This document shows positions 1-12,041 of a stretch of 51,341 bases of DNA, in pieces. Source of the stretch: Gammaproteobacteria bacterium (lineage in GTDB: Bacteria > Pseudomonadota > Gammaproteobacteria > Poriferisulfidales > Poriferisulfidaceae). Position numbers and translations under genes: made by a program. Position 1 is the first letter of the stretch. Each line of letters opens with the position of its first letter. The notes below the pieces were generated by a model. It was not told where the DNA came from, did no database searches, and worked only from the letters and a program-made list of their open reading frames with translations. The stretch spans positions 1-51,341 of the forward strand of contig JAPOXW010000010.1 of the NCBI GenBank assembly GCA_026706895.1, read 5' to 3'.

Positions 1-1
1 C

Positions 2-55
2 GCCGAGGGGCGCGCGGAAGACCGCATCGAAATCCAGCTCCAGGGGCGCTGGTAG
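2..55 (+). CDS. 3' end of an upstream gene, possibly OmpA-family
   Basis: An open frame enters from the left edge and ends at TAG 53-55. The 17 visible residues include GRAEDRIEIQL. This resembles the conserved end of OmpA/MotB C-terminal peptidoglycan-binding domains, which usually read GRAxNRRVEI. Too little is present to name the gene, and the assignment rests on this one motif. Confidence 0.4.
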   Translation, partial: AEGRAEDRIEIQLQGRW

Positions 56-121
56 GGGGGCCAGAGCCGAAACCGACCTCCGTACGCGGGAAGTCGCAAC
101 GGCAGCCATGACCGGGGCATA

Positions 122-127
122 TATAAT
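122..127 (+). promoter_or_regulatory. Probable -10 element of the coxB promoter
   Basis: A perfect TATAAT lies 48 bp before the ATG at 176. No good -35 hexamer stands 16-18 bp upstream, so the promoter is weak or needs an activator. Transcription would start near 134. That excludes the GTG at 128 as the coxB start and supports ATG 176. Confidence 0.4.
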
Positions 128-175
128 GTGGGTTCAAGTTCGCGATTTCAGACGAAACACGCCCGCTTTCTACAC

Positions 176-1003
176 ATGCCGGAAAGAATCCGTCGGTTGC
201 TGCCGAATTTAAAATCCGTTCTGAACCTTCGCCGCCTCGCGGCCGGGGCTATTCTGTTGCCCTTCGCAAGCGCCGCACTGGCCGGCTGGGACACCCTCAA
301 CATGCCGGTCGGTGTCACCGAAGTCAGCCGCATCGTCTATGACCTGCACATGCTGATCTTCTGGATCTGCGTGGTTATCGGCATCGTGGTATTCGGCGCC
401 ATGTTCTATTCCATCCTGATGCACCGGAAATCCCGCGGCGTGACCGCTGCGACGTTCCACGAAAGCACGACCGTGGAAGTAATCTGGACAGTCATCCCCT
501 TCATCATCCTGGTCGCCATGGCGGTTCCGGCGACGGCCACCCTGATCAAGATGGAGGATTCCGGCCAATCCGAGATGACGATCAAGATCACCGGCTACCA
601 GTGGCTGTGGCGTTACGACTATCTGGACCACGATTTCGGTTTTTACTCGTTCCTCTCGACTTCGCGCGATTCGATCCGCGATAGGGCGGAAAAGGGCGAA
701 CACTACCTGCTGGAAGTCGACCGACCCCTGGTCATCCCGACCAACACGAAAATCCGCATGCTGATCACCGCCAACGACGTGATCCATGCCTGGTGGGTGC
801 CGGATCTCGCCCTCAAGCGGGACGCCATACCGGGTTTCATCAACGAACTGTGGACCCAGATCGATGATCCCGGTGTCTACCGGGGCCAATGCGCCGAACT
901 ATGCGGCCGCGACCATGGCTTTATGCCGATAGAGGTCCATGCCGTGCCCCCTGACGAATACCGCGCCTGGGTCGAGAAGCAGACCGCCGGCGTAGCCGAA
1001 TAA
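176..1003 (+). CDS. coxB: Cytochrome c oxidase subunit II (aa3 type)
   Basis: This subunit accepts electrons from cytochrome c at its dinuclear CuA centre and passes them to subunit I. The protein has 275 residues from ATG 176. It shows an N-terminal signal-like hydrophobic segment, two transmembrane helices (roughly residues 55-80 and 95-120) and a periplasmic cupredoxin domain. CuA ligands are visible as H204, C239, C243, H247 and M250, in VIHAWW and CAELCGRDHGFM. There is no fused cytochrome c domain at the C-terminus, so an external cytochrome c donor is expected. An in-frame GTG at 128 would add 16 residues but lies inside the likely promoter. coxA follows after 14 bp, in the usual order. 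Confidence 0.95.
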   Translation: MPERIRRLLPNLKSVLNLRRLAAGAILLPFASAALAGWDTLNMPVGVTEVSRIVYDLHMLIFWICVVIGIVVFGAMFYSILMHRKSRGVTAATFHESTTVEVIWTVIPFIILVAMAVPATATLIKMEDSGQSEMTIKITGYQWLWRYDYLDHDFGFYSFLSTSRDSIRDRAEKGEHYLLEVDRPLVIPTNTKIRMLITANDVIHAWWVPDLALKRDAIPGFINELWTQIDDPGVYRGQCAELCGRDHGFMPIEVHAVPPDEYRAWVEKQTAGVAE

Positions 1004-1017
1004 CCTACGGAGCCGAC

Positions 1018-2595
1018 ATGAGCGAAATCGCCGCCGCGCACGACGACCATCACGATTACCATCCCAGCGGCCTGTGGCGCTGGGTGACCACGACCAATCA
1101 CAAGGACATTGGCACGCTGTACCTGTGGCTGGCCATGATCATGTTCTTCATCGGCGGCGCGATGGCGCTGGTGATCCGCACCGAGTTGTTCTCACCGGGC
1201 CTGCAATTCGTCGATCCCCAGTTCTTCAACTCGATGACCACGCTGCACGCGCTGGTCATGATCTTCGGCGTGGTGATGCCCGCTTTCACCGGTCTGGCCA
1301 ACTGGCAGATCCCCCTGATGGTCGGCGCGACCGACATGGCCCTGCCGCGCCTCAACAACTGGAGTTTCTGGATCCTGCCGTTCGCATTCGCCATGCTGCT
1401 GTCGACCATGTTCATGGACGGCGGCGGCCCGGCCGGCGGCTGGACCCTGTATCCCCCGCTCACCCTGCAGACCGGCAACGCCCTGCCGTTCGTCATCTTC
1501 TCGATCCACTTCATGGGCATGTCCTCCATCATGGGCGCGATCAACATCATCGCCACCATCGTCAACATGCGTGCGCCGGGCATGCACATGATGAAGATGC
1601 CCCTGTTCGTTTGGACCTGGTTGATCACCGCCTTCCTGCTGATCGCCGTGATGCCGGTGCTGGCAGGCGGCGTCACCATGCTGCTGACTGACAAGTTCTT
1701 CGGGACCAGTTTCTTCAACGCGGCCGGCGGCGGCGACCCGGTCATGTTCCAGCATATCTTCTGGTTCTTCGGCCATCCGGAAGTCTACATCCTGATCCTG
1801 CCTTCGTTCGGGGTGGTGTCCAGCATCCTGCCGACCTTCTCCCGTAAGCCGCTGTTCGGCTACAGTTCGATGGTCTACGCCACCGCTTCGATCGCTTTCC
1901 TGTCATTCGTCGTGTGGGCGCACCACATGTTCACGGTCGGCATGCCACTGGCCGGCGAATTGTTCTTTATGTTCGCCACCATGCTGATCGCCGTGCCGAC
2001 TGGCGTTAAGGTCTTCAACTGGGTCGCCACCATGTGGCGAGGCTCAATGACGTTCGAGACCCCGATGCTGTTCGCCATCGGCTTTATCATCATGTTCACC
2101 ATAGGCGGGTTCTCCGGTCTGATGCTGGCGATTGTGCCGGCGGACTTCCAGTATCACGATTCCTATTTCGTGGTCGCCCACTTCCACTACGTCCTGGTCC
2201 CCGGATCGATCTTCGCGATCATGGCGGCGGTCTACTACTGGCTGCCTAAATGGACTGGAAACCACTACCCGGAACGCCTGGGCAAATGGCACTTCTGGCT
2301 GTCCACCATCTTCGTCAACCTGACTTTCTTCCCGATGCACTTTGTCGGTCTCGCCGGCATGCCGCGACGCATCCCCGACTACGCGCTTCAGTTCGCCGAC
2401 TACAACATGCTGGCCTCGGTCGGCGCATTCGGCTTCGGTTTCGCGCAGTTGCTGTTCCTGTACATCGTGGTGGTGACCATCCGGGGAGGAGAGAAAGCCA
2501 CGGACCAGGTCTGGGAAGGTGCGGAAGGGCTGGAGTGGACCTTGCCGTCCCCGCCGCCCTACCATAGTTTCACCACCCCGCCGGTGGTTCGATGA
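1018..2595 (+). CDS. coxA: Cytochrome c oxidase subunit I
   Basis: This is the catalytic proton-pumping subunit that holds heme a and the heme a3-CuB centre where O2 is reduced to water. The 525 residues match the family length of about 530 and contain about twelve hydrophobic helices. Visible ligands are H77 and H390 for heme a, H388 for heme a3, and H253, H302 and H303 for CuB. The HPEVY motif (253-257) carries the tyrosine that is cross-linked to histidine in this family. The stop codon overlaps the start of the next small gene, so translation is probably coupled. Confidence 0.97.
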   Translation: MSEIAAAHDDHHDYHPSGLWRWVTTTNHKDIGTLYLWLAMIMFFIGGAMALVIRTELFSPGLQFVDPQFFNSMTTLHALVMIFGVVMPAFTGLANWQIPLMVGATDMALPRLNNWSFWILPFAFAMLLSTMFMDGGGPAGGWTLYPPLTLQTGNALPFVIFSIHFMGMSSIMGAINIIATIVNMRAPGMHMMKMPLFVWTWLITAFLLIAVMPVLAGGVTMLLTDKFFGTSFFNAAGGGDPVMFQHIFWFFGHPEVYILILPSFGVVSSILPTFSRKPLFGYSSMVYATASIAFLSFVVWAHHMFTVGMPLAGELFFMFATMLIAVPTGVKVFNWVATMWRGSMTFETPMLFAIGFIIMFTIGGFSGLMLAIVPADFQYHDSYFVVAHFHYVLVPGSIFAIMAAVYYWLPKWTGNHYPERLGKWHFWLSTIFVNLTFFPMHFVGLAGMPRRIPDYALQFADYNMLASVGAFGFGFAQLLFLYIVVVTIRGGEKATDQVWEGAEGLEWTLPSPPPYHSFTTPPVVR

Positions 2596-2708
2596 CCCAG
2601 CCCCGGACGCCCGAGCGCCGTGCCGCAATACGGACCGCCTGGATCGTAGCAATTGTCGCCATGACAATCTACGTGGGCTTCTACTTCCTAGTGGGAACTG
2701 CAGGATGA
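2592..2708 (+). CDS. Cytochrome oxidase small assembly protein
   Basis: This 38-residue frame starts at an ATG that overlaps the coxA stop (ATGA) and ends in TGA overlapping the ctaG start (ATGA). It has a basic N-terminus (RTPERR) followed by a single transmembrane helix, about residues 16-36, ending GFYFLVGTAG. Small single-helix proteins occur at exactly this place, between coxA and ctaG, in many beta- and gammaproteobacteria and are annotated as oxidase small assembly proteins. Its role here is inferred from position and shape. Confidence 0.7.
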   Translation: MTQPRTPERRAAIRTAWIVAIVAMTIYVGFYFLVGTAG

Positions 2709-3253
2709 AACGTCCTCCCCGTCGAACGGCGATCCGGCTGGCGGCAGTCTGCGTGCTGATGCTGGGTTTCTCTTATGCGCTGGTTCCGCTTTACGATGCC
2801 CTGTGCGACCTCACCGGGCTGTCCGGGTCGACCAGCAATCTGACTCAGGCAATGGCCACCGCACCTGAGACTGAAACCGTTGCCGAACGTCAAGTCACGC
2901 TGCAGTTCGTTGCGAACGTCGATCACTCCATGCCTTGGGACATCCGCCCGGACCAGTTCGAGATGAAAATCCGGCCCGGCCAGACCTACCAGACCGTATT
3001 CCATGCATACAACCGCACCGCACGAGCCATGACCGGTCAGGCTGTCCCCAGTGTCGCCCCGCAAATGGCGGCCCCGCACCTCATCAAGCAGGAATGCTTC
3101 TGTTTCACCAGCCAACCGCTTGATGCCGGGGAAAGCGTTGAAATGCCTTTGATTTTCAAGGTCAGCGAACGCCTGCCCGAAACCATTGGAACCCTGACCC
3201 TGTCGTACACCTTCTTTGACGTCTCTCAAACTTCCGGGACCCAATCAGGCTAA
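2705..3253 (+). CDS. ctaG: Cytochrome c oxidase assembly protein CtaG (Cox11 family)
   Basis: CtaG delivers copper to CuB of subunit I. The protein has 182 residues: one N-terminal membrane anchor (about 8-30) and a periplasmic immunoglobulin-like domain. The copper-binding signature CFCF is present in QECFCFTSQPL, and the conserved cysteine after the membrane helix is in ALCDLTG. ATG 2705 is chosen because it overlaps the preceding small gene by 4 bp and gives the usual family length. A longer frame upstream would run through coxA coding sequence. coxC follows 5 bp downstream. Confidence 0.93.
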   Translation: MKRPPRRTAIRLAAVCVLMLGFSYALVPLYDALCDLTGLSGSTSNLTQAMATAPETETVAERQVTLQFVANVDHSMPWDIRPDQFEMKIRPGQTYQTVFHAYNRTARAMTGQAVPSVAPQMAAPHLIKQECFCFTSQPLDAGESVEMPLIFKVSERLPETIGTLTLSYTFFDVSQTSGTQSG

Positions 3254-3258
3254 CCCTC

Positions 3259-4128
3259 ATGTCGGACTCTACGCTCTACTACATTCCCGAACCCAGCCAC
3301 TGGCCGATTGTCGGCTCTGTCGGCCTGTTCACCACCCTGATCGGCGCTGCGCTGATGATGCTGGACTCGGCAATTGGCTCTTGGCTTCTGGCGGCCGGCA
3401 TCCTGATCGTGGTGCTCATGATGTTCGGCTGGTTCGGCACCGTGATCGGCGAGAGCGAGAGTGAAACCTACAACGCACAGGTCGATTTGTCGTTCCGCTG
3501 GGGGATGTTCTGGTTCATCTTCTCGGAGGTCATGTTCTTCGCCGCCTTCTTCGGCGCCCTCTACTACGCCCGCCAGTACTCGTTGCCATGGCTTGGGGGC
3601 GAGGGTCCCGGCATACTGACCAACTCTTATCTGTGGCAAGGCTATGAGGCCCTGTGGCCCTATACCGCGAACGGCCCGGGCGAGGTCGGCGGCGCATTCA
3701 CCCACATGGGCGCTTGGGGCCTGCCTGCAATCAACACGCTGATTTTGCTGACCAGCGGCGGCACGGTCACCTGGGCACACCATGCCCTCAAGGCTGGGCA
3801 CCGGGGGCAATTGATCGCGGGACTGTTCCTGACCGTGGCGCTAGGGTTCCTCTTCATCGCGCTGCAGGCGCTCGAGTATATGCATGCCTTCACGGAACTC
3901 AATCTGAACCTGGGATCAGGCATCTATGGTTCAACCTTTTTCATGCTGACCGGCTTTCACGGCCTTCATGTCACGATTGGGGCCATAATTCTGACCGTCG
4001 TGCTGTTCCGCTGCATTTCCGGGCATTTCACCCCGAACCGACACTTCGCGTTCGAGGCGGCCGCCTGGTACTGGCACTTCGTTGACGTCGTTTGGCTCGG
4101 TCTGTTCGTCTTCGTCTACTGGCTGTAA
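3259..4128 (+). CDS. coxC: Cytochrome c oxidase subunit III
   Basis: Subunit III is a membrane subunit that stabilises the oxidase and its proton uptake. The 289 residues include about seven hydrophobic helices. Family hallmarks are FWFIFSEVMFF in the second third, the HHALKAGHRG segment, and the end AAAWYWHFVDVVWLGLF. It closes the coxB-A-ctaG-C run. The usual next gene (DUF2909-like) is displaced about 3.3 kb downstream by an inserted methyltransferase gene. Confidence 0.96.
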   Translation: MSDSTLYYIPEPSHWPIVGSVGLFTTLIGAALMMLDSAIGSWLLAAGILIVVLMMFGWFGTVIGESESETYNAQVDLSFRWGMFWFIFSEVMFFAAFFGALYYARQYSLPWLGGEGPGILTNSYLWQGYEALWPYTANGPGEVGGAFTHMGAWGLPAINTLILLTSGGTVTWAHHALKAGHRGQLIAGLFLTVALGFLFIALQALEYMHAFTELNLNLGSGIYGSTFFMLTGFHGLHVTIGAIILTVVLFRCISGHFTPNRHFAFEAAAWYWHFVDVVWLGLFVFVYWL

Positions 4129-4394
4129 CGGGAAAAGGCGGAGATATGGCGCGCCATAATCTTTATTCTTCAAATTTTTCTGAGTGCACAAAACCATCGA
4201 TCAAGTCTTCCCCCAGAAAGGCGAATCGAAGAAACTGCAACCCCTGATTGTTCCACCCCTCAACTCACAGCATAAAGCGCACTAAAGCGGGCACACCAGT
4301 CAAGGACTGATATGCTGTAATCAGAGTACCCTGCCAGATTGTTCTGTAGGATTGCCTCACACTATCGCCAAAAAGACAAACGGAATCGGTGATC
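4129..4394. other. A/T-richer intergenic region upstream of the methyltransferase gene
   Basis: The 266 bp after coxC hold a perfect 14-bp palindrome, TATGGCGCGCCATA (4145-4158), followed by a T-rich stretch that might weakly terminate transcription. A short inverted repeat CAGTC-AAG-GACTG lies at 4297-4309. A weak promoter-like pair, TTGTTC (4248-4253) and CATAAA (4271-4276) with 17 bp spacing, could serve the methyltransferase gene. No coding sequence is apparent. Confidence 0.35.
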
Positions 4395-7298
4395 ATGCCC
4401 AAGACTGCGGAGACCGCATTCAATTTCGAATTGGCAAAAGTGCTGAGGAAGAAACATCCACGGTGGTCGGATCGAATCGGGGTAGAACAGACAAACGTCT
4501 TCAGTGAAGCGGCCGGACTGCGGCCTGACATCGTCGTCAACCATCCTGGGGGACTTCCAGTCGGTATTGAGACCGAATATACCCCGGCCGCAACCGTTGA
4601 GCAGGATGCCTGCCAACGTCTCGGAAAAACCCTGAAAGAAACAGGGCAACGCATAGAACAGGCCATCGCCGTACGTATCCCACATGCCTTGGCGAGTGCC
4701 AACCAGAATGACCTTGGAAAAGAAATAGAGAAAGCGGAGTTGCAATTTTGTGTTTTTTCAGGTTACCCGGAAAACCCCAATCGGTGGCCGAAATCCGGTT
4801 GGCTTGAAGGCGGCGTGGACGACCTTGCGTCCTGCATCGAATGGGTGGCACTTTCTGAAAACCAGATTGCCCGTGGCATGGGAATTCTCGAAGAAGGGAT
4901 TGAGCAGGCAGCGAATAGACTGCGTGAGGCCTGTGCCGATGCGCCGGACACACTCAAGTCCATTTCTCATGAACTTCATCAGAAAGACGGAGAACAGACA
5001 TCACGGATGGCGATGGCCATTCTGGCCAACGCGCTGACCTTTCATATCACCATTACAGGCTCCCACGAAATCGAAACGCTGGACCAGCTATGCAACGTCA
5101 ACGGAAAAATCTCAAAGACCCGCATCATCAGAGTCTGGTGGCGCATTCTCAGGGAGATCAACTACTGGCCCATTTTCAGGATTGCCTCTGATGTCCTCGC
5201 CCCCATCCGAAACAACACGGCAAGCGAAATTCTGAGCCTGCTGTCCATCGTCGCGGACAACCTTGTTTCCCTTGGGGCCAACAGCCAGCACGATTTATGT
5301 GGTCGCATGTTTCAGCGGCTCATCATGGACCGGAAATTCCTCGCAACGTTCTACACCTTGCCGACTTCAGCGACCCTACTTGCGGAAATTGCCGTGGCAC
5401 GCCTTGACGTCGACTGGTCAGACAAGAGTGCAGTGGCCGATCTGAAAATCAGTGACTTCGCCTGTGGCACCGGGGCACTGCTCAATTCGGCGTACAAGGC
5501 TGTGCTCTCACGCTACCGACGAAAGGGAAAGGACGACAGGGACATCCACCCCCAGATGATGGAAAGTTCACTGGTGGGCGCAGACATCATGCCAGCCGCA
5601 ACCCACCTGACAGCATCCATGCTTTCAAGCACGCACCCCAGCGTGACTTTCAGAAACACATCAATCGTCACGCTACCTTACGGCAAACAGCCCAAATCCT
5701 CTGGACGTCAAGTCGCAATCGGAGCACTTGACCTGATTGAAGACGAGCAGGCCCTTTCGTTGTTTGGTTCGGGACACGGCACCGGGCAAAAGCGGGTGCG
5801 TGGGGTGGACAGCAGTGACCAAGGGCATGTCGCCATGCTCCACAACGGATTCGACATCGTCATCATGAATCCGCCCTTTACCCGTCCCACGAATCATGAA
5901 AAGACTGATGTGCCCATCCCATCTTTCGCAGGTTTCGACACCGCCAAAGATGAGCAGAGGCTGATGTCGAACCGGCTCAAGCAGATGCGCACGCCGATGA
6001 CGGTGGGAGACGGGAATGCAGGATTGGCCTCGAATTTTATTGATCTTGCCCACGCGAAAGTAAGACCTGGAGGCATTGTTGCGCTAGTCCTCCCTGCGGC
6101 CTTTCTTCAGGGAAGCGCTTGGGCTCCGGCCCGGAGTTTGTTCAGCCAATACTATGAAAATGTCGTCATCGTCAGCATTGCTGCAGTGGGTACGGATGAG
6201 CGCGCATTCTCGGCCGATACTGGTATGGCAGAAGTACTAGTTGTTGCCACCAAGAGATACACGAAAAATGAGTCGGGAACGGTTGCGCTGTTCGTGAATC
6301 TTCTGCAACGCCCGCAGACCATTCTGGAAGCTGCGATGATCGCAAGATCCATTCAGCAGGTCCCGGACGATCCAGCCTTTGCACCGATAACCTTGGGGAA
6401 TGAAGTTGATGCATGCGGGTGCCATATCAAGAGTACGTTGAACGAAACTGGCTGCGCGGGACTGCGCGAGGTCGGTGTGGCACAGGCCGCGATAGGGCTC
6501 ACCCAGAGTGAACTGCGACTGCCCAGGCAACCTGATGCTGTACAACTCCCTTTGACCGCTCTTCAAAAGTTGGGCGATCGAGGGCTTTTGGATCGCGATA
6601 TCAATGGCAAAGAAATCACTGACAAAGGACCTAGAGGCCCGTTTGACATCAAAAAAAGAGACAAGGATTTCGAGACCTATCCCGCCCTATGGAAGCATGA
6701 GGCCACCCAGGAAAAACGGATGATCGTAATTCCGGAGCATGCTGGAGTGGTTCGCCCGAAGTGTAATGGACGTGCCGACGCAGTGTGGGAAAAGACAGCT
6801 TCGTGCTTGCATTTCAATCGAGATTTTCAGATCAACTCGCAACCGCTCACGGCCTGCATGACGCCCGAGCCATCAATAGGAGGTCGTGCCTGGCCCAGCT
6901 TCCTGTGTTCCGACCTGAACTGGGAAAAGCCGCTCATGCTCTGGGCCAATACAACCCTCGGCCTCATCGCATTCTGGTGGGTCGGGACTCGCCAGCAACA
7001 GGGCAGAGCAACACTCACCATCTCAAGGCTGCCAACTCTCACCGTGTTGGATCCACGAAAACTCACAGAAGGACAATTGAGCCATGCGGGTGAAATTTTT
7101 GATCAATTCCATGATCAGGCGTTACGACCTGCCAACGAAGCCTATCAGGACGAAGTGCGGCAAGCGCTTGACCACGCTGTCTTGATTGATCTATTGGGTC
7201 TTCCAGAAGATGTGCTGGAGCCGCTTTCCCTTTTGCGTCGTCAATGGTGCGCCGAACCCTCGGTTCATGGAGGAAAGAGTACGGCCCCTTCAGAATAG
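4395..7298 (+). CDS. Large N6-adenine DNA methyltransferase, possible restriction-modification fusion
   Basis: The 967-residue protein carries an N6-adenine methyltransferase core. Motif I, DFACGTGA, is near residues 354-361, and the catalytic motif IV, NPPF, is near 492-495. An N-terminal segment has PD (44-45) followed by ExE (59-61) in IETEY. That spacing is seen in PD-(D/E)XK nucleases, although the lysine is replaced. A long C-terminal region could hold target recognition. No separate restriction or specificity gene lies beside it. ATG 4395 is preferred to the GTG 6 bp upstream; neither has a strong ribosome site. The gene looks clearly more A/T-rich than its neighbours and splits the oxidase cluster, so transfer is likely. 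It could be a type IIG-like enzyme, a solitary methylase or a defence gene; only the methyltransferase part is sure. Confidence 0.8.
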   Translation: MPKTAETAFNFELAKVLRKKHPRWSDRIGVEQTNVFSEAAGLRPDIVVNHPGGLPVGIETEYTPAATVEQDACQRLGKTLKETGQRIEQAIAVRIPHALASANQNDLGKEIEKAELQFCVFSGYPENPNRWPKSGWLEGGVDDLASCIEWVALSENQIARGMGILEEGIEQAANRLREACADAPDTLKSISHELHQKDGEQTSRMAMAILANALTFHITITGSHEIETLDQLCNVNGKISKTRIIRVWWRILREINYWPIFRIASDVLAPIRNNTASEILSLLSIVADNLVSLGANSQHDLCGRMFQRLIMDRKFLATFYTLPTSATLLAEIAVARLDVDWSDKSAVADLKISDFACGTGALLNSAYKAVLSRYRRKGKDDRDIHPQMMESSLVGADIMPAATHLTASMLSSTHPSVTFRNTSIVTLPYGKQPKSSGRQVAIGALDLIEDEQALSLFGSGHGTGQKRVRGVDSSDQGHVAMLHNGFDIVIMNPPFTRPTNHEKTDVPIPSFAGFDTAKDEQRLMSNRLKQMRTPMTVGDGNAGLASNFIDLAHAKVRPGGIVALVLPAAFLQGSAWAPARSLFSQYYENVVIVSIAAVGTDERAFSADTGMAEVLVVATKRYTKNESGTVALFVNLLQRPQTILEAAMIARSIQQVPDDPAFAPITLGNEVDACGCHIKSTLNETGCAGLREVGVAQAAIGLTQSELRLPRQPDAVQLPLTALQKLGDRGLLDRDINGKEITDKGPRGPFDIKKRDKDFETYPALWKHEATQEKRMIVIPEHAGVVRPKCNGRADAVWEKTASCLHFNRDFQINSQPLTACMTPEPSIGGRAWPSFLCSDLNWEKPLMLWANTTLGLIAFWWVGTRQQQGRATLTISRLPTLTVLDPRKLTEGQLSHAGEIFDQFHDQALRPANEAYQDEVRQALDHAVLIDLLGLPEDVLEPLSLLRRQWCAEPSVHGGKSTAPSE

Positions 7299-7399
7299 AT
7301 GGCCCTGGTAGCGGCAATTCTGGACTTTTACAACCCCAAACTCAAACCTAAACAACACGTTTATTGTGTTCTGTAAATATAAGACCCTAACGGAACGCG

Positions 7400-7609
7400 T
7401 CAAGATCGGGGACGCAATCCATGCGGCTCGATCCAACCCATCCAGCCCGCCAATAGCAACAGCAGAAACAGGCCGATCGACAGGCCAATCCGCCAGGTCA
7501 GCGCCCGCACGGTGCGGTGAGTCGTGCCCCGGTCCCGTACCAGGAACACCAAGGCAGAAAACAGGCTTGCCAGAATCACCAGCAATAGAATAACCACCAG
7601 AAATTTCAT
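7400..7609 (-). CDS. Twin-transmembrane protein, DUF2909-like
   Basis: The protein has 69 residues and two hydrophobic helices (about 2-24 and 38-62) joined by a short basic loop containing VRDRG. Small proteins of this kind sit between coxC and surf1 in many gammaproteobacteria, often on the opposite strand as here. The function is unknown, and a part in oxidase assembly is inferred from position only. Its start lies 21 bp from the surf1 start, so the two genes are divergent. Confidence 0.65.
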   Translation of the reverse strand: MKFLVVILLLVILASLFSALVFLVRDRGTTHRTVRALTWRIGLSIGLFLLLLLAGWMGWIEPHGLRPRS

Positions 7610-7630
7610 CGTGGGTCCAGCCTGACTCTC

Positions 7631-8353
7631 ATGCGTCGATTCCGCCCTTCACTCCTGCTCAGTTTTGCGACCGTCGCGCTGACCGCCATTCTCCTCTCAC
7701 TGGGATTCTGGCAGCTCGAACGAGCCGAACTCCGTCGTACACAAGACGAGTTGAAACAGGAGCGGGCGCAATTGTCCCCCGTTTATATCACATCATTTCC
7801 CGGAGAATCCCTTGAGGAACTGGCCGACCGCCGGGTTCGTCTGCGCGGGCGGTACCTGCCCTGGCAGTTCCTGCTCGACAACCAGATCCATGGCAAGCAG
7901 CCCGGCTATCACGTGCTGAGCCCCTTCGAACTGTCGACCTACGAGCAGGTTGTCCTGATCAACCGGGGATGGGTTCCGGCCGGGGCGGACCGCTCCCGGC
8001 TGCCCCCTGTACCGATACCCACCGAATCCGAAGTCCAGCTCGAGGGAGTCATCTACCTCCCCCAACCCAATCCGTTCACCGACTCGGACCACCTGCTGGA
8101 AGGCCACGGCTGGCCACAAGTGATTCAGGGCATTGATTACCCCCGCCTTGCCGAACGTCTGGGCGAACTTTCGCTCGTCCCTGCCACGGTCCGGCTTGCT
8201 GAAAACCAGCCGCACGGCTATACGCTTGCCTGGCCAAGCCCCCCGATGAGCGCGGAGAAACATACGGCGTATGCGGTCCAATGGTTCGCCATGGCTGCAG
8301 CAGTGGTGATTTTGTTCTTTCTGTATTCCGTACGGCCGATCTTCCGAAGCTGA
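7631..8353 (+). CDS. SURF1 family cytochrome oxidase biogenesis protein
   Basis: SURF1 proteins help insert heme a into oxidase subunit I. The 240 residues fit the family: an N-terminal helix (about 7-24), a periplasmic domain with LRGRYLPWQFLLDNQ and the hallmark VLINRGWVPAG, and a C-terminal helix (about 215-235) after the motif HTAYAVQWFAMA. The stop overlaps the next start by one base (TGATG). It is placed correctly before ctaA and ctaB. Confidence 0.93.
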   Translation: MRRFRPSLLLSFATVALTAILLSLGFWQLERAELRRTQDELKQERAQLSPVYITSFPGESLEELADRRVRLRGRYLPWQFLLDNQIHGKQPGYHVLSPFELSTYEQVVLINRGWVPAGADRSRLPPVPIPTESEVQLEGVIYLPQPNPFTDSDHLLEGHGWPQVIQGIDYPRLAERLGELSLVPATVRLAENQPHGYTLAWPSPPMSAEKHTAYAVQWFAMAAAVVILFFLYSVRPIFRS

Positions 8354-8940
8354 TGTTCCACCTTGGTTCACACCCGGAAGCTCGGCGTCTGCTGCGCTCA
8401 CGCCTTTACCTGATCGGGCTGGTGCTGGCGTTTGCAGGCCCCTTAGTCGCCTCCGTCGTGCTGTACCACAATCCGCAATTGCGCGGGGATGTCGGTGGCG
8501 ACAGCCACGGCTCCCTGATCCTGCCTCCCCAGCCGCTCGGGCGCGACTTGTTCCGGCTTCCCGACCAGCCCCCGCGCTGGACCCTGCTCTACCATGCCCG
8601 CGCCGCAACCTGCAGCCTCGACTGCGAAGCGACCCTGTTCATGATGCGGCAGGTCCATCAGTCCCTGGGCTCCAAGCGCAACCGGGCACAAATCCTGATT
8701 CTGCTCGATCATGCGGAACTGGAGACACCCTACGCAGAAGTACTGAAACGCTTCAAACCGGATCAGGTTCGCATCTCTCCAAAAAGCCCCGATATCGACG
8801 CTCTGGACGACCAGCCCAGCGATACTCTCTTTATCGTCGATCCCCTAGGGAACCTGCTGATGCATTACGACGGTCGGTCCACCTCCCGGGGGATCCTGCG
8901 TGACTTGAAACGTCTCCTGACTGCCTCCCGGATCGGCTGA
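8353..8940 (+). CDS. SCO-like membrane-anchored thiol protein of the oxidase cluster
   Basis: The protein has 195 residues with one N-terminal helix (about 18-38) and a periplasmic domain. A CXXXC motif, CSLDC, is followed later by LFIVDPLGNLLMHY, which resembles the end of the thioredoxin fold in SCO copper chaperones. SCO proteins normally have CxxxCP and a copper-binding histidine; the proline is absent here. Hypothetical proteins sit at this place, between surf1 and ctaA, in Pseudomonas and relatives. A role in copper or thiol handling during CuA assembly is inferred. ATG 8353 overlaps the surf1 stop and is preferred over an upstream in-frame codon inside surf1. Confidence 0.65.
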   Translation: MFHLGSHPEARRLLRSRLYLIGLVLAFAGPLVASVVLYHNPQLRGDVGGDSHGSLILPPQPLGRDLFRLPDQPPRWTLLYHARAATCSLDCEATLFMMRQVHQSLGSKRNRAQILILLDHAELETPYAEVLKRFKPDQVRISPKSPDIDALDDQPSDTLFIVDPLGNLLMHYDGRSTSRGILRDLKRLLTASRIG

Positions 8941-8945
8941 CTCCC

Positions 8946-9947
8946 ATGTTGTTCCGTCGCCTTCTGTCGCTGACCGTGGCACTGACATTCCTGGTAGTGG
9001 TGATCGGCGCCTTCGTGAGGCTGACCGACGCCGGGCTCGGCTGCCCGGACTGGCCGGGATGCTACGGGCACCTGACTTCTCTACCGGAAACCGAACAGGA
9101 AATCGCGGCTGCACAGGCACAGGACCCGCGCGGGACATACGACGCCGTAAAGGCTTCTCGTGAAATGCTACACCGGTACCTGGCCGGCGCGCTCGGCCTG
9201 TTGATTCTGGCCTTGGCCGTACTGTGCCGAACCCGGCTGGGCAGCGCGCGCCTTGCACGCGGCACGATGGCGCTGCTCGCATTGGTGGTGTTGCAAGCCC
9301 TGCTCGGCATGTGGACCGTCACCCTGCAGTTGAAACCCTTGATCGTCACCCTGCACCTGCTGGGCGGCTTCGCCACTTTGGGCCTGATCTGGTGGCTGCT
9401 GCTGCGCTACCACGACTGGCCTCGCCCGACGGCTTCGGATCCGCCGCGTCCTCTGCGCTACCTGTACGCCGCCGCCTTGGCAGGGCTTGTCGTGCAGATC
9501 ACCCTAGGCGGATGGACCAGTACCAACTACGCCGCCCTGGCCTGCCCCGATTTTCCTACTTGCCGGGAACAGTGGTGGCCTTCCGGCATGGATTTCTCCG
9601 AGGCTTTCGTCCTGTGGCGGGGGCTGGGCATCGACTATGAGTACGGGGTTCTGGACAGCCCGGCGCGCACCGCCATCCATGTCGCCCATCGAATCGGCGC
9701 CGTCGTGGCTTCCGCCCTGATCCTGGCTTTAGCGGCCGCATCCATCCGGAGCGGACCCGGTGCATGGCGCACAAGCGGCTGGGTCCTGATCGCGCTGCTG
9801 GCCATCCAGGTTTCTCTCGGTATCGGCAATATCGTCCTGCAGCTTCCTCTTTCCGTCGCCGTCGCGCACAATGCTTTCGCGGCAATCCTGCTGCTAGCGA
9901 TTCTCACCCAGGGGCGACTTCTGCTCAACCGCGGAGCCAGCCCGTGA
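8946..9947 (+). CDS. ctaA: Heme A synthase (COX15/CtaA family)
   Basis: The enzyme oxidises the C8 methyl group of heme O to give heme A. The 333 residues show about eight hydrophobic helices. Family motifs include TDAGLGCPDWPGCYG near the N-terminus, EMLHRYLAG with a heme-ligand histidine, LGGWTSTNYAALACPDFPTC in the middle, and AVAHNAFAAILL at the end. The cysteine pairs in the loops are those of the type with conserved loop disulfides. Its stop overlaps the GTG start of ctaB by 4 bp. Confidence 0.95.
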   Translation: MLFRRLLSLTVALTFLVVVIGAFVRLTDAGLGCPDWPGCYGHLTSLPETEQEIAAAQAQDPRGTYDAVKASREMLHRYLAGALGLLILALAVLCRTRLGSARLARGTMALLALVVLQALLGMWTVTLQLKPLIVTLHLLGGFATLGLIWWLLLRYHDWPRPTASDPPRPLRYLYAAALAGLVVQITLGGWTSTNYAALACPDFPTCREQWWPSGMDFSEAFVLWRGLGIDYEYGVLDSPARTAIHVAHRIGAVVASALILALAAASIRSGPGAWRTSGWVLIALLAIQVSLGIGNIVLQLPLSVAVAHNAFAAILLLAILTQGRLLLNRGASP

Positions 9948-10831
9948 ATCTGACTTCCTCCTGGCGCGATTACTGGGAGGTCACCAAGCCGCGCGTGGTC
10001 GCGTTGATGACATTCACCGCACTGATCGGCATGGTTCTGGCCGATCCCCTGATGCAAGTGCCCATGAAAATGCTGTACGGCGCAATCGGCATCACCCTCA
10101 TGGCGGCTGCGGCTGCGGCCATCAACCAGATCGCCGACCAGCACGTGGATGCCCAAATGGACCGCACGCAGGCCCGACCCCTGCCGCGCGGTTCGTTGCG
10201 TACACCTCAGGTACTCGGATTTGCATCCCTGCTCGGCATGGGCGGGTTCCTGCTGCTGTACTTTTGGGTCAACGGGTTGACGGCCTGGTTGACTCTGGGT
10301 TCCCTGATCGGATATGCGCTGGTCTATACCCTTTACCTTAAGCGCGCGACACCCCAGAACATCGTCATCGGCGGGGCTGCCGGCGCCACGCCCCCCCTGC
10401 TCGGCTGGGCCGCGGTCACCGGCAATATCGAAGCAGGGGCCTTGGCCCTGTTCCTGATCATCTTCGTATGGACGCCCCCGCATTTCTGGGCGCTGGCCCT
10501 GCACCGCAAAGAGGACTATGCGAAAGCTGATATTCCAATGCTGCCGGTGACGCATGGCGACAGCTACACCCGCTTACAGATCACGCTGTACACCGTGTTG
10601 CTGGCTGCCACAAGCATGCTACCGTTCGTTATTCAACTCTCTGGACAGGTGTACCTGGCCGGTGCATTAATCCTGAACGGGATTTTCCTGGCCTATGCGA
10701 TACGAATGCAGAAGGAAGCCAGCAACCGCCTCGCCATGCCGACCTTCACCTATTCCATCGTCTACCTGATGGGGCTGTTCACATTGTTGCTTTTGGATCG
10801 GTACTTGGAATTGTTCCAAGCCTCCTCATGA
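9944..10831 (+). CDS. ctaB: Protoheme IX farnesyltransferase
   Basis: The enzyme adds a farnesyl group to heme B, making heme O, the substrate of CtaA. The protein is a UbiA-type prenyltransferase of 295 residues with about nine hydrophobic helices. The first aspartate-rich motif is in NQIADQHVDAQMDRT, and the second region includes YTLYLKR followed by APPLLG-like ATPPLLGW. The GTG start at 9944 overlaps the ctaA stop. A longer in-frame extension upstream would run through ctaA. It is the last gene of the oxidase cluster; no SCO1/SenC gene follows as in many relatives. Confidence 0.95.
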   Translation: MNLTSSWRDYWEVTKPRVVALMTFTALIGMVLADPLMQVPMKMLYGAIGITLMAAAAAAINQIADQHVDAQMDRTQARPLPRGSLRTPQVLGFASLLGMGGFLLLYFWVNGLTAWLTLGSLIGYALVYTLYLKRATPQNIVIGGAAGATPPLLGWAAVTGNIEAGALALFLIIFVWTPPHFWALALHRKEDYAKADIPMLPVTHGDSYTRLQITLYTVLLAATSMLPFVIQLSGQVYLAGALILNGIFLAYAIRMQKEASNRLAMPTFTYSIVYLMGLFTLLLLDRYLELFQASS

Positions 10832-10941
10832 CTGCTTGAAGCGAAATTGTATTAATTTCGTAGTCACTCTTCCGGTCTTGCCAAAATCTACTGTGGTGTG
10901 AGACTCGTAAATCCGGAACGGGTTAATCGCCCGAATCTCTC
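10826..10941 (-). pseudogene. Remnant of a second PIN-toxin 3' end
   Basis: On the minus strand, 10917-10941 matches 21 of 25 bases of 11323-11347, the C-terminal coding region of the intact vapC. It would encode EIRAINPFRIY, against EIRVIDPFRTP in the toxin. A stop codon lies immediately before it, and the rest of the gene is missing. The reading then continues to a stop at 10826. I take it as a decayed partial copy; it could also be a small duplicated segment. Confidence 0.35.
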
Positions 10942-11270
10942 AATTTTCTGACAGGCTCATTCTTACTTTCTTTGGCACATCACGGTTTTGTGTAATGGAA
11001 CAGAGGATTCCTTGGCCTTTCGCAAACCCCGACCCATGGCGACACCAGGCCGTATTCCAGCCCTCCCGGATCAGTCAGCCGGAATCGTCGGGCGACGCCC
11101 GGAACTGCAGAGAGAATCAGCCTTTTCGCCCCCCAGCTTTCCTTGGAAAACTGGTTTTGCAGGAAAACCCTGGTGCAGTATATTAAGTCGCAATCGTCAA
11201 GCAAGGCCTGTTCCCATATGTCCTGAACCCGTACACTGGAATCGTCCAGAAAAAACCGTACTTGCCTTCC
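10832..11270. other. Noncoding stretch between ctaB and vapC
   Basis: The 439 bp contain the PIN-gene remnant (10826-10941) and an inverted repeat CGAAATT-N5-AATTTCG (10842-10860) just after ctaB. Open frames exist across 10988-11323 but overlap vapC on the other strand and show no recognisable protein features or ribosome site. I see no convincing gene. Confidence 0.4.
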
Positions 11271-11735
11271 TCACTTTCCCGACCCTGCTAAGACTTCTTC
11301 TGGGGCACGATCTGGTGTTCTAAACGGGTCGATTACCCGAATCTCTCCGATCATCCGGTCATGCTGCAAATCTTCGGTGAGCAACGTGGAGCATTCGCAA
11401 GTCTGCGCGGCCGCAACGATCAGGGCATCCCACCATGAAAGTTTATGGAGTTGCTGAAGAAGCCAAGCTTTCTCCAGAACTGGGAGGTCGATGGCCACCG
11501 GTTGCCACACCGAAAATTTCCGCACAATCTCCTTTGCTTCTCCCTCCTCGAATCGTGGCTCCAACTTGCGCGTCAGCGTCGCATAGAGTTCCAGTAAAAC
11601 CTGAAAGCTGATCCGGGCCGACCGATGATGTGCTAAAAATGTAATCCATGCCTTCGCGCACGATTGTTTGGCAGGCTCCGACCCATCCTGCAGGTAAACC
11701 AGAATGTTGGTGTCAACGAAAACTGGCCCGGTCAT
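11271..11735 (-). CDS. vapC: PIN-domain toxin, VapC-like
   Basis: VapC toxins are Mg-dependent ribonucleases. The 154-residue protein begins VFVDTNILVYL, which supplies the first acidic metal ligand. A conserved glutamate follows in QVLLELYATL, and the later acidic cluster is in LSWWDALIVAAA and LLTEDLQHD. ATG 11735 is chosen because it gives the standard PIN start; it overlaps the antitoxin gene end by 23 bp, as expected for a coupled pair. An upstream in-frame start would add ten residues without PIN similarity. The RNA target cannot be told from sequence. Confidence 0.88.
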   Translation of the reverse strand: MTGPVFVDTNILVYLQDGSEPAKQSCAKAWITFLAHHRSARISFQVLLELYATLTRKLEPRFEEGEAKEIVRKFSVWQPVAIDLPVLEKAWLLQQLHKLSWWDALIVAAAQTCECSTLLTEDLQHDRMIGEIRVIDPFRTPDRAPEEVLAGSGK

Positions 11736-11955
11736 GCAATTCTTCCCGCGTCGGTTTTCGGCCATCCACCCATTTGAACTTTCGGGGTTTTCTTGCTAAA
11801 AGAGCCCTCATGGCAGTGTCGTACTCGTCTTCCTGACGCTTCATTCCTTCCAGCAAACCAGCCAACCATCGCGAGACACTACGGTCGCTCTCGGCAGCCC
11901 GGACCCTCAACCAGCGGGCAACATCTTCCGGCAGTGTTACAGTGATGTTCTTCAT
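11713..11955 (-). CDS. vapB: VapB-like antitoxin, ribbon-helix-helix type
   Basis: This 80-residue protein begins MKNITVTLPEDVARWLRVRA, which looks like a ribbon-helix-helix DNA-binding domain (strand followed by two helices, about 1-45). The basic C-terminal part, about 50-80, would wrap the toxin. It precedes and overlaps vapC. ATG 11955 is chosen because a consensus promoter ends only six bases upstream, so earlier in-frame codons would not be transcribed. The protein probably represses its own promoter through the palindrome at 11973-11987. Confidence 0.82.
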   Translation of the reverse strand: MKNITVTLPEDVARWLRVRAAESDRSVSRWLAGLLEGMKRQEDEYDTAMRALLARKPRKFKWVDGRKPTREELHDRASFR

Positions 11956-11961
11956 AACACG

Positions 11962-11990
11962 ATTATACGGAAACACGAAATTCGTGTCAA
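11962..11990 (-). promoter_or_regulatory. Consensus sigma70 promoter of vapBC with embedded operator
   Basis: On the minus strand TTGACA (11990-11985) and TATAAT (11967-11962) are separated by exactly 17 bp, a perfect sigma70 promoter. A perfect palindrome, ACACGAA-A-TTCGTGT (11973-11987), fills the spacer and touches the -35 box. This is the expected place for an autorepressor site. The -10 ends 6 bp before the vapB ATG, so the transcript should start at or next to the A of ATG. Confidence 0.8.
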
Positions 11991-12041
11991 ATGAAATTGG
12001 GTCAGGGAATCTCTCAAAGCCCTAGGAACCCCACTCGATGT

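Follow-up and report, generated by a model that had tools for sequence, protein, structure and literature searches.

The window analysed here, a contig of 51,341 nucleotides (JAPOXW010000010.1; assembly GCA_026706895.1) from a gammaproteobacterium of the family Poriferisulfidaceae, carries a gene for a 969-residue protein between coxC and a DUF2909 gene. The name coxC (cytochrome aa3 oxidase subunit III) is our assumption, taken from the initial annotation and from recognition of the sequence rather than from a family scan. In our view the protein is probably a one-gene type IIG-like restriction-modification enzyme whose gene was inserted recently, and as a bare gene, at this position. This interpretation is based on the insertion, the predicted fold, the conserved active-site residues, the methylase motifs and the absence of recurrent partner genes. 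If it works as its type IIG homologues do, the C-terminal half would recognize a DNA sequence and the central part would methylate adenine in this target using S-adenosylmethionine, while the N-terminal PD-(D/E)XK domain, with its BamHI-like D...E-x-E metal site, would cut DNA in which the target is unmethylated. Phages and other incoming DNA would thus be restricted and the host genome protected. Catalysis by both halves, a target sequence, cutting of unmethylated DNA and a role in defence are what we infer here. The initial annotation had raised the same idea of a single-chain type IIG-like enzyme, and the empty site, the predicted nuclease fold and the composition described below all support it, with activity presumed.

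When the protein was searched against the host genome and 54 relatives (55 genomes), a full-length copy of the gene came up in the host only. Partial matches of 24–28% identity are present in three other genomes of the set, and the sole other match in the host genome covers 99 residues at 27% identity. CoxC was detected in eight of 11 relatives tested and Surf1 in five of seven. The coxC–surf1 interval had been proposed as the place to seek an empty site, and an uninterrupted site was found there in each of the three same-genus genomes in which CoxC and Surf1 are both present: the match to the window up to position 4131 runs into the match from 7388, with identities of 88–93% on the left and 82–92% on the right (wider stretches were aligned for two of the three genomes). 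Two further same-genus genomes lack a CoxC or Surf1 match and are therefore uninformative on the site. Because the flanks are continuous in three same-genus genomes, the insert represents a discrete gain or loss, and the empty sites rule out long-standing residence of the gene in the oxidase cluster. An attempt to find a second empty site using the relatives L032, L015 and L017 gave none, the neighbours of L032 being too distant.

These borders (4132–7387) lie close to the span of 4129–7400 first noted, and the gene within them (4389–7298) is indeed a large predicted adenine-methyltransferase gene inserted in the aa3 oxidase cluster. It does separate coxC from the DUF2909 gene (PF11137, E = 3.7e-25), with the correction that the latter is convergent with coxC and not co-directional; the insert sits between the 3' ends of the two genes and neither is broken. 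The insert has a GC content of 53.4% and the fusion gene 54.4% (58.9% at third codon positions, GC3), compared with 58.8–60.7% (GC3 69–87%) for coxB, coxA, coxC and surf1. The A/T-richness relative to the surroundings that had been remarked on is thus real, and the composition of the insert and its gene is foreign to the oxidase cluster.

The hexanucleotide TAACGG is present as a direct repeat at both borders of the insert and as a single copy at the empty site. By a simple formula, a random junction would show a shared run of at least six bases with a probability of about 0.0013, and the repeat fits target-site duplication and microhomology-mediated joining alike. A comparison of the first 60 bases of each insert end gave no terminal inverted repeats of six or more bases, ruling out a transposon bounded by such repeats, and no transposase was recognized in the insert among open reading frames (ORFs) of at least 80 amino acids, which disposes of a transposon carrying its own. 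The genome has a single copy of the 5' non-coding part of the insert, which is hence not a repeated element. A perfect palindrome, ATGGCGCGCCAT, is located at 4146–4157, just within the left end.

The N-terminal domain, when modelled alone, is predicted with confidence (predicted local distance difference test, pLDDT, 93.9). Its elements (helix 8–20, strands 30–32, 48–50 and 58–64, helix 70–77 and strand 91–97) follow the order found in PD-(D/E)XK nucleases. Structural comparison using VIA gave 1wdj (Z = 7.9), 4ic1 (7.3) and the resolvase Hjc (4tkd; 7.0) as the best matches, followed by a second Holliday-junction resolvase (6.8), McrBC (6.6) and BsaXI (6.4); the comparison with DrdV gave Z = 6.5 for 118 aligned residues with a root-mean-square (r.m.s.) difference of 3.8. 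Most of the leading matches are PD-(D/E)XK nucleases, and the structure comparison proposed at the outset thus favours such a fold.

Conservation was assessed over 55 relatives of the gene, each a locus from genome_contigs. Alignment A1 contains the window protein and 42 of these (43 rows); L007, L009, L013, L016, L034, L040, L047, L049, L051, L053, L054, L056 and L057 were left out as near-duplicates, as truncated or broken frames or as very divergent (L009 is missing from the ORF cluster, and the frame of L040 has only 843 residues). D47 and E61 are each kept in 41 of the 43 rows, E63 in every row and E8 in all 40 rows that cover its position. The exceptions for D47 and E61 are L026 and L031, which form a single Chloroflexota pair. 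When this pair is set aside, the remaining 41 rows all agree at seven positions of the domain (E33, D47, E61, E63, R77, R132 and P134), and the inclusion of D47, E61 and E63 among them has a probability of about 6e-5 if the columns are exchangeable.

D47 and E61 do not vary across a wider set of 13 rows, and the printed alignment has a glutamate at position 63 in 11 rows and a lysine in two; in L057, one of the 11, the glutamate stands within a shifted local context. The two lysine-bearing rows come from mobilizable plasmids of Aminobacter (WP_108610813, labelled 'N-6 DNA methylase') and Sulfuricystis (WP_126447967, 'hypothetical protein'). These full-length homologues can be aligned along most of the chain (27% identity) and, unlike the protein encoded in the insert, carry the canonical E-x-K. 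BLASTP pairs RPDIVV...IETE with RPDVLI...IEGK and RPDVMF...IEGK (E = 7e-73 and 6e-71, respectively). The initial annotation had read PD...ExE as a possible degenerate or divergent nuclease site. Since almost all family members keep E-x-E and distant homologues have E-x-K, the site is, as judged from the alignments, better called divergent, and the notion of a degenerate or decayed one is not retained.

Several observations weigh against an active nuclease in a type IIG-like enzyme. Every VIA Z score for the N-terminal domain is below 8, a range that is possible without kinship; Foldseek with this domain alone returned nothing at E ≤ 0.001, and its sequence matches no solved PDB chain or Pfam model. 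The usual catalytic lysine is replaced, with E63 in its place. The PADLOC type IIG models are matched weakly (best E = 9.2e-6, over 60 residues). L026 and L031 are without D47 and E61 and have a complete methylase, and the second of two tandem copies in L024 (11048–13681) is shorter and without the PD motif; the nuclease can therefore be dispensable. We note that L024:8001-13681 holds the two family genes in tandem, and that L026 (7431–8000) and L031 (7344–8000) have about 190 extra N-terminal residues with no Pfam match, perhaps a replacement domain.

The replaced lysine and the pair L026 and L031 also speak for the main rival explanation, a solitary adenine methylase with a role in regulation or self-marking, in which the nuclease-fold domain is dead and binds DNA or stabilizes the protein. 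A dead site would be expected to drift, however, whereas D47, E61 and E63 are retained almost throughout alignment A1, and D47 and E61 in 13 of 13 rows of the wider set. Furthermore, a passage of the review PMC4081073 gives BamHI as an enzyme in which the lysine of the PD...(D/E)XK motif is replaced by a glutamate. We therefore regard a solitary methylase as unlikely. BamHI was not recovered as a relative by any search made. It is a separate endonuclease that is not known to carry a methylase domain.

In the methylase half, residues D356, C359, G360, T361, G362, N494, P495 and P496 are invariant across the 43 rows; the first five belong to DFACGTG and the last three to NPPF, known as motif I and motif IV. 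The Pfam Eco57I model matches the methylase core with 26.1 bits (cut-off 25.3; E = 1.1e-5), and just 23 of the 43 family members match it at 0.001. PADLOC and NCBIfam give weak matches, confined to the methylase core, to PglX as well as to enzymes of types I, II and IIG, and the PglX, MAD2 and Alw26I matches in NCBIfam are all well under their cut-offs. None of the curated models scanned (Pfam, PADLOC and NCBIfam) spans the whole protein.

A full-length structure model built from the 43 rows has a mean pLDDT of 87.1 and a predicted template-modelling score (pTM) of 0.90. In Foldseek the best match is BpuSI, a type IIG enzyme (E = 1.2e-18), followed by PglX, a Vibrio methyltransferase and then DrdV, also type IIG (1.4e-13). 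The top Z scores in VIA belong to methylases, with CamA at Z = 23.0 (486 residues aligned, r.m.s. difference 4.4). BpuSI aligns with residues 153–965 (Z = 19.6, 619 aligned, r.m.s. difference 11.3), and in DrdV chain residues 18–1023 align with residues 1–930 (Z = 18.7, 622 aligned, r.m.s. difference 7.2).

BpuSI (PDB entry 3s1s), the top Foldseek match, and DrdV (PDB entries 7lvv and 7lo5), aligned by VIA over nearly the full length, have the single-chain layout that is predicted here: an N-terminal PD-(D/E)XK domain, a helical connector, a gamma-type adenine methylase and a C-terminal recognition region. The identities in the structural alignments are low (about 9–14%), and the site of the present protein is E-x-E, not E-x-K. 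As in type IIG enzymes, the predicted nuclease, the methylase and a probable recognition region lie in one polypeptide, with no separate specificity or restriction gene recognized nearby; the PD-(D/E)XK domain is N-terminal, as indicated by the predicted fold and by D47 and E61, its third residue being a glutamate, and the motifs are those of an N6-adenine methylase (DFACGTG and NPPF, with Eco57I above cut-off). The remark that the gene stands without restriction or specificity genes agrees with the ORF list of window positions 1-12000, the part annotated for such genes, in which none was recognized.

The methylases PglX/BrxX of BREX, MAD2 of MADS and DrmMI of DISARM have a related methylase core, and we considered whether the protein is a PglX- or DrmM-like methylase of such a multi-gene system, with its partners elsewhere in the genome. 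Weak core matches to the PglX, mad2 and DrmMI models and the PglX structures among the top Foldseek matches point in this direction. The scores, however, are far under the curated cut-offs (27.3 versus 500 bits for BREX-1 PglX and 18.7 versus 720 bits for MADS MAD2), and the matches would be to the core that is common to gamma-type enzymes. Around the relatives, no gene cluster besides the family itself is common to more than four of the 55 loci. In a scan of 93 near neighbours, out of 183 neighbour ORFs around 53 loci, each Pfam family and each PADLOC family occurs in at most two; two of the 93 are C5 methylases. As no cluster, Pfam family or PADLOC family recurs around the relatives examined, there is no recurrent partner gene. 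This is unlike BREX, MADS and DISARM; it rules out a multi-gene defence locus and makes a methylase with distant partners highly improbable.

In a tree of 43 proteins the window protein pairs with a gammaproteobacterial protein (support 97/95), nested in a clade that also contains alphaproteobacteria and two cyanobacteria (100/99). The ten phylum labels require 13 changes (minimum 9; mean of shuffled labels 24) and are therefore clustered. Three of the changes concern Chloroflexota, one Actinomycetota and at least five Pseudomonadota; a count above one does not prove transfer. The Chloroflexota and Actinomycetota copies may, on these sequences, be mostly vertical in descent. Some genomes have two copies, as with L035 and L036, which share a chromosome. 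Titles of two of the 55 loci name Synechococcus spongiarum and 12 loci bear jk18x bin names, which in a passage of PMC9531527 belong to Ircinia sponge symbionts; ten more have the prefixes CAR, COS, RHO and STY, which appear to stand for sponge genera that occur in PMC8163846. These are raw counts for the collection and do not show enrichment.

Relatives are also found on mobile elements. Seven of 72,556 plasmid records match, three of them covering at least 80% of the query, and 11 of 50,697 INPHARED phage records match over residues 171–663 only, mostly annotated as a type IIG enzyme. IMG/VR contributes six loci, of which two (L099 and L100) are close to full length. On the phage contig of L100 the gene (3935–7021) is flanked by a replication-initiation gene on one side and by genes for an antiterminator, an HNH protein and a terminase small subunit on the other, and its nuclease site reads RPDIL...IEAE; the evidence that L099 is from a phage is weaker (transglycosylase, E = 2.2e-6). 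L100, the two mobilizable plasmids and the occurrence beside conjugation genes would suit a protective methylase of phage or plasmid origin that shields its element from host restriction, the chromosomal copy being a relic. No phage or plasmid gene was seen in the insert, however, the gene is intact, and the neighbours of the genome_contigs relatives are varied and mostly housekeeping. We give such an origin little credence; it is in any case compatible with nuclease activity.

The least conserved part of the family is at residues 641–735, where the mean pairwise identity is 0.325, the lowest family-wide (0.41–0.51 in other regions). We compared three Chloroflexota copies (L012, L013 and L054; L014 and L017 were left out), which are mostly 70–100% identical in each 30-residue block. 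L054 falls to 37–63% at about residues 181–300 against both of the others, and L013 to 43–73% at about residues 510–810, where L012 and L054 remain 70–100% identical. The DNA shows the same mosaic pattern. In these three sequences it looks as if two blocks have been exchanged, and one of the two is probably where the target is recognized. The block at about 181–300 falls in the helical connector, not in the expected recognition region.

Tentatively, these proteins may form an uncatalogued family of solitary E-x-E type IIG-like enzymes, a bare gene that moves between phyla, is common to sponge symbionts, phages and plasmids, and changes specificity by swapping two separate blocks, of which one is part of the helical connector and the other follows NPPF. 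The type IIG-like architecture and the BamHI-like site are of a known kind, and no full-length match was found among the curated models scanned. A literature search, at passage level and hence no proof of absence, found no title or abstract opening describing the family. A gene whose relatives are labelled 'N-6 DNA methylase' or 'hypothetical protein' in databases can now be read as probably encoding an entire defence enzyme, whose active site is open to testing, and the natural E-x-E/E-x-K pair in one single-chain family would allow the role of the third residue to be tested in one scaffold. PMC8163846 describes restriction-modification genes as enriched and laterally transferred in sponge symbionts, and a related enzyme across phyla of such symbionts offers a concrete candidate for this. 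Should its members prove active, the family may supply enzymes with new recognition sites.

Table 1. Features of the insert, the fusion gene and the flanking genes (window coordinates)
Feature	Position	Strand	Basis
coxC, left neighbour	3259–4128	+	ORF; protein 92–96% identical in three genomes of the genus
6-bp direct repeat TAACGG, left copy, starting inside the coxC stop codon	4126–4131		Junction alignment and strings
3,256-bp insert, missing from three same-genus genomes	4132–7387		Junction alignment
969-residue nuclease–methylase fusion gene, GTG start	4389–7298	+	ORF and translation; Pfam Eco57I; structure models
PD-(D/E)XK-fold domain, residues 1–156	4389–4856	+	Predicted fold, conservation, E-x-K in distant homologues
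E8, putative active-site residue	4410–4412	+	In N-terminal domain
D47, putative active-site residue	4527–4529	+	In N-terminal domain
E61, putative active-site residue	4569–4571	+	In N-terminal domain
E63, putative active-site residue	4575–4577	+	In N-terminal domain
Helical connector, residues 157–340	4857–5408	+	Model secondary structure; type I M subunits align structurally from near residue 156
Adenine-methylase core, residues 341–640	5409–6308	+	Invariant motif residues; Pfam, PADLOC and NCBIfam matches
DFACGTG (motif I)	5454–5474	+	Within methylase core
NPPF (motif IV)	5868–5879	+	Within methylase core
Probable target-recognition region, residues 641–810, containing the least conserved stretch	6309–6818	+	Conservation; mosaic block in three Chloroflexota copies
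Right copy of TAACGG	7388–7393		Junction alignment and strings
DUF2909 gene, right neighbour	7400–7609	-	Translation; Pfam PF11137
surf1, beyond the DUF2909 gene	7631–8353

A second variable site, a low-GC stretch, lies 3.4 kb downstream at window positions 10819–12038; here about 2.7 kb in the genome G001 and about 0.1 kb in G004 have no blastn match to the window. It contains a PIN-domain gene (11271–11765, minus strand; PF01850, E = 3.9e-13), which together with a weak ribbon-helix-helix gene (11713–11976, minus strand) forms a VapBC-like pair.

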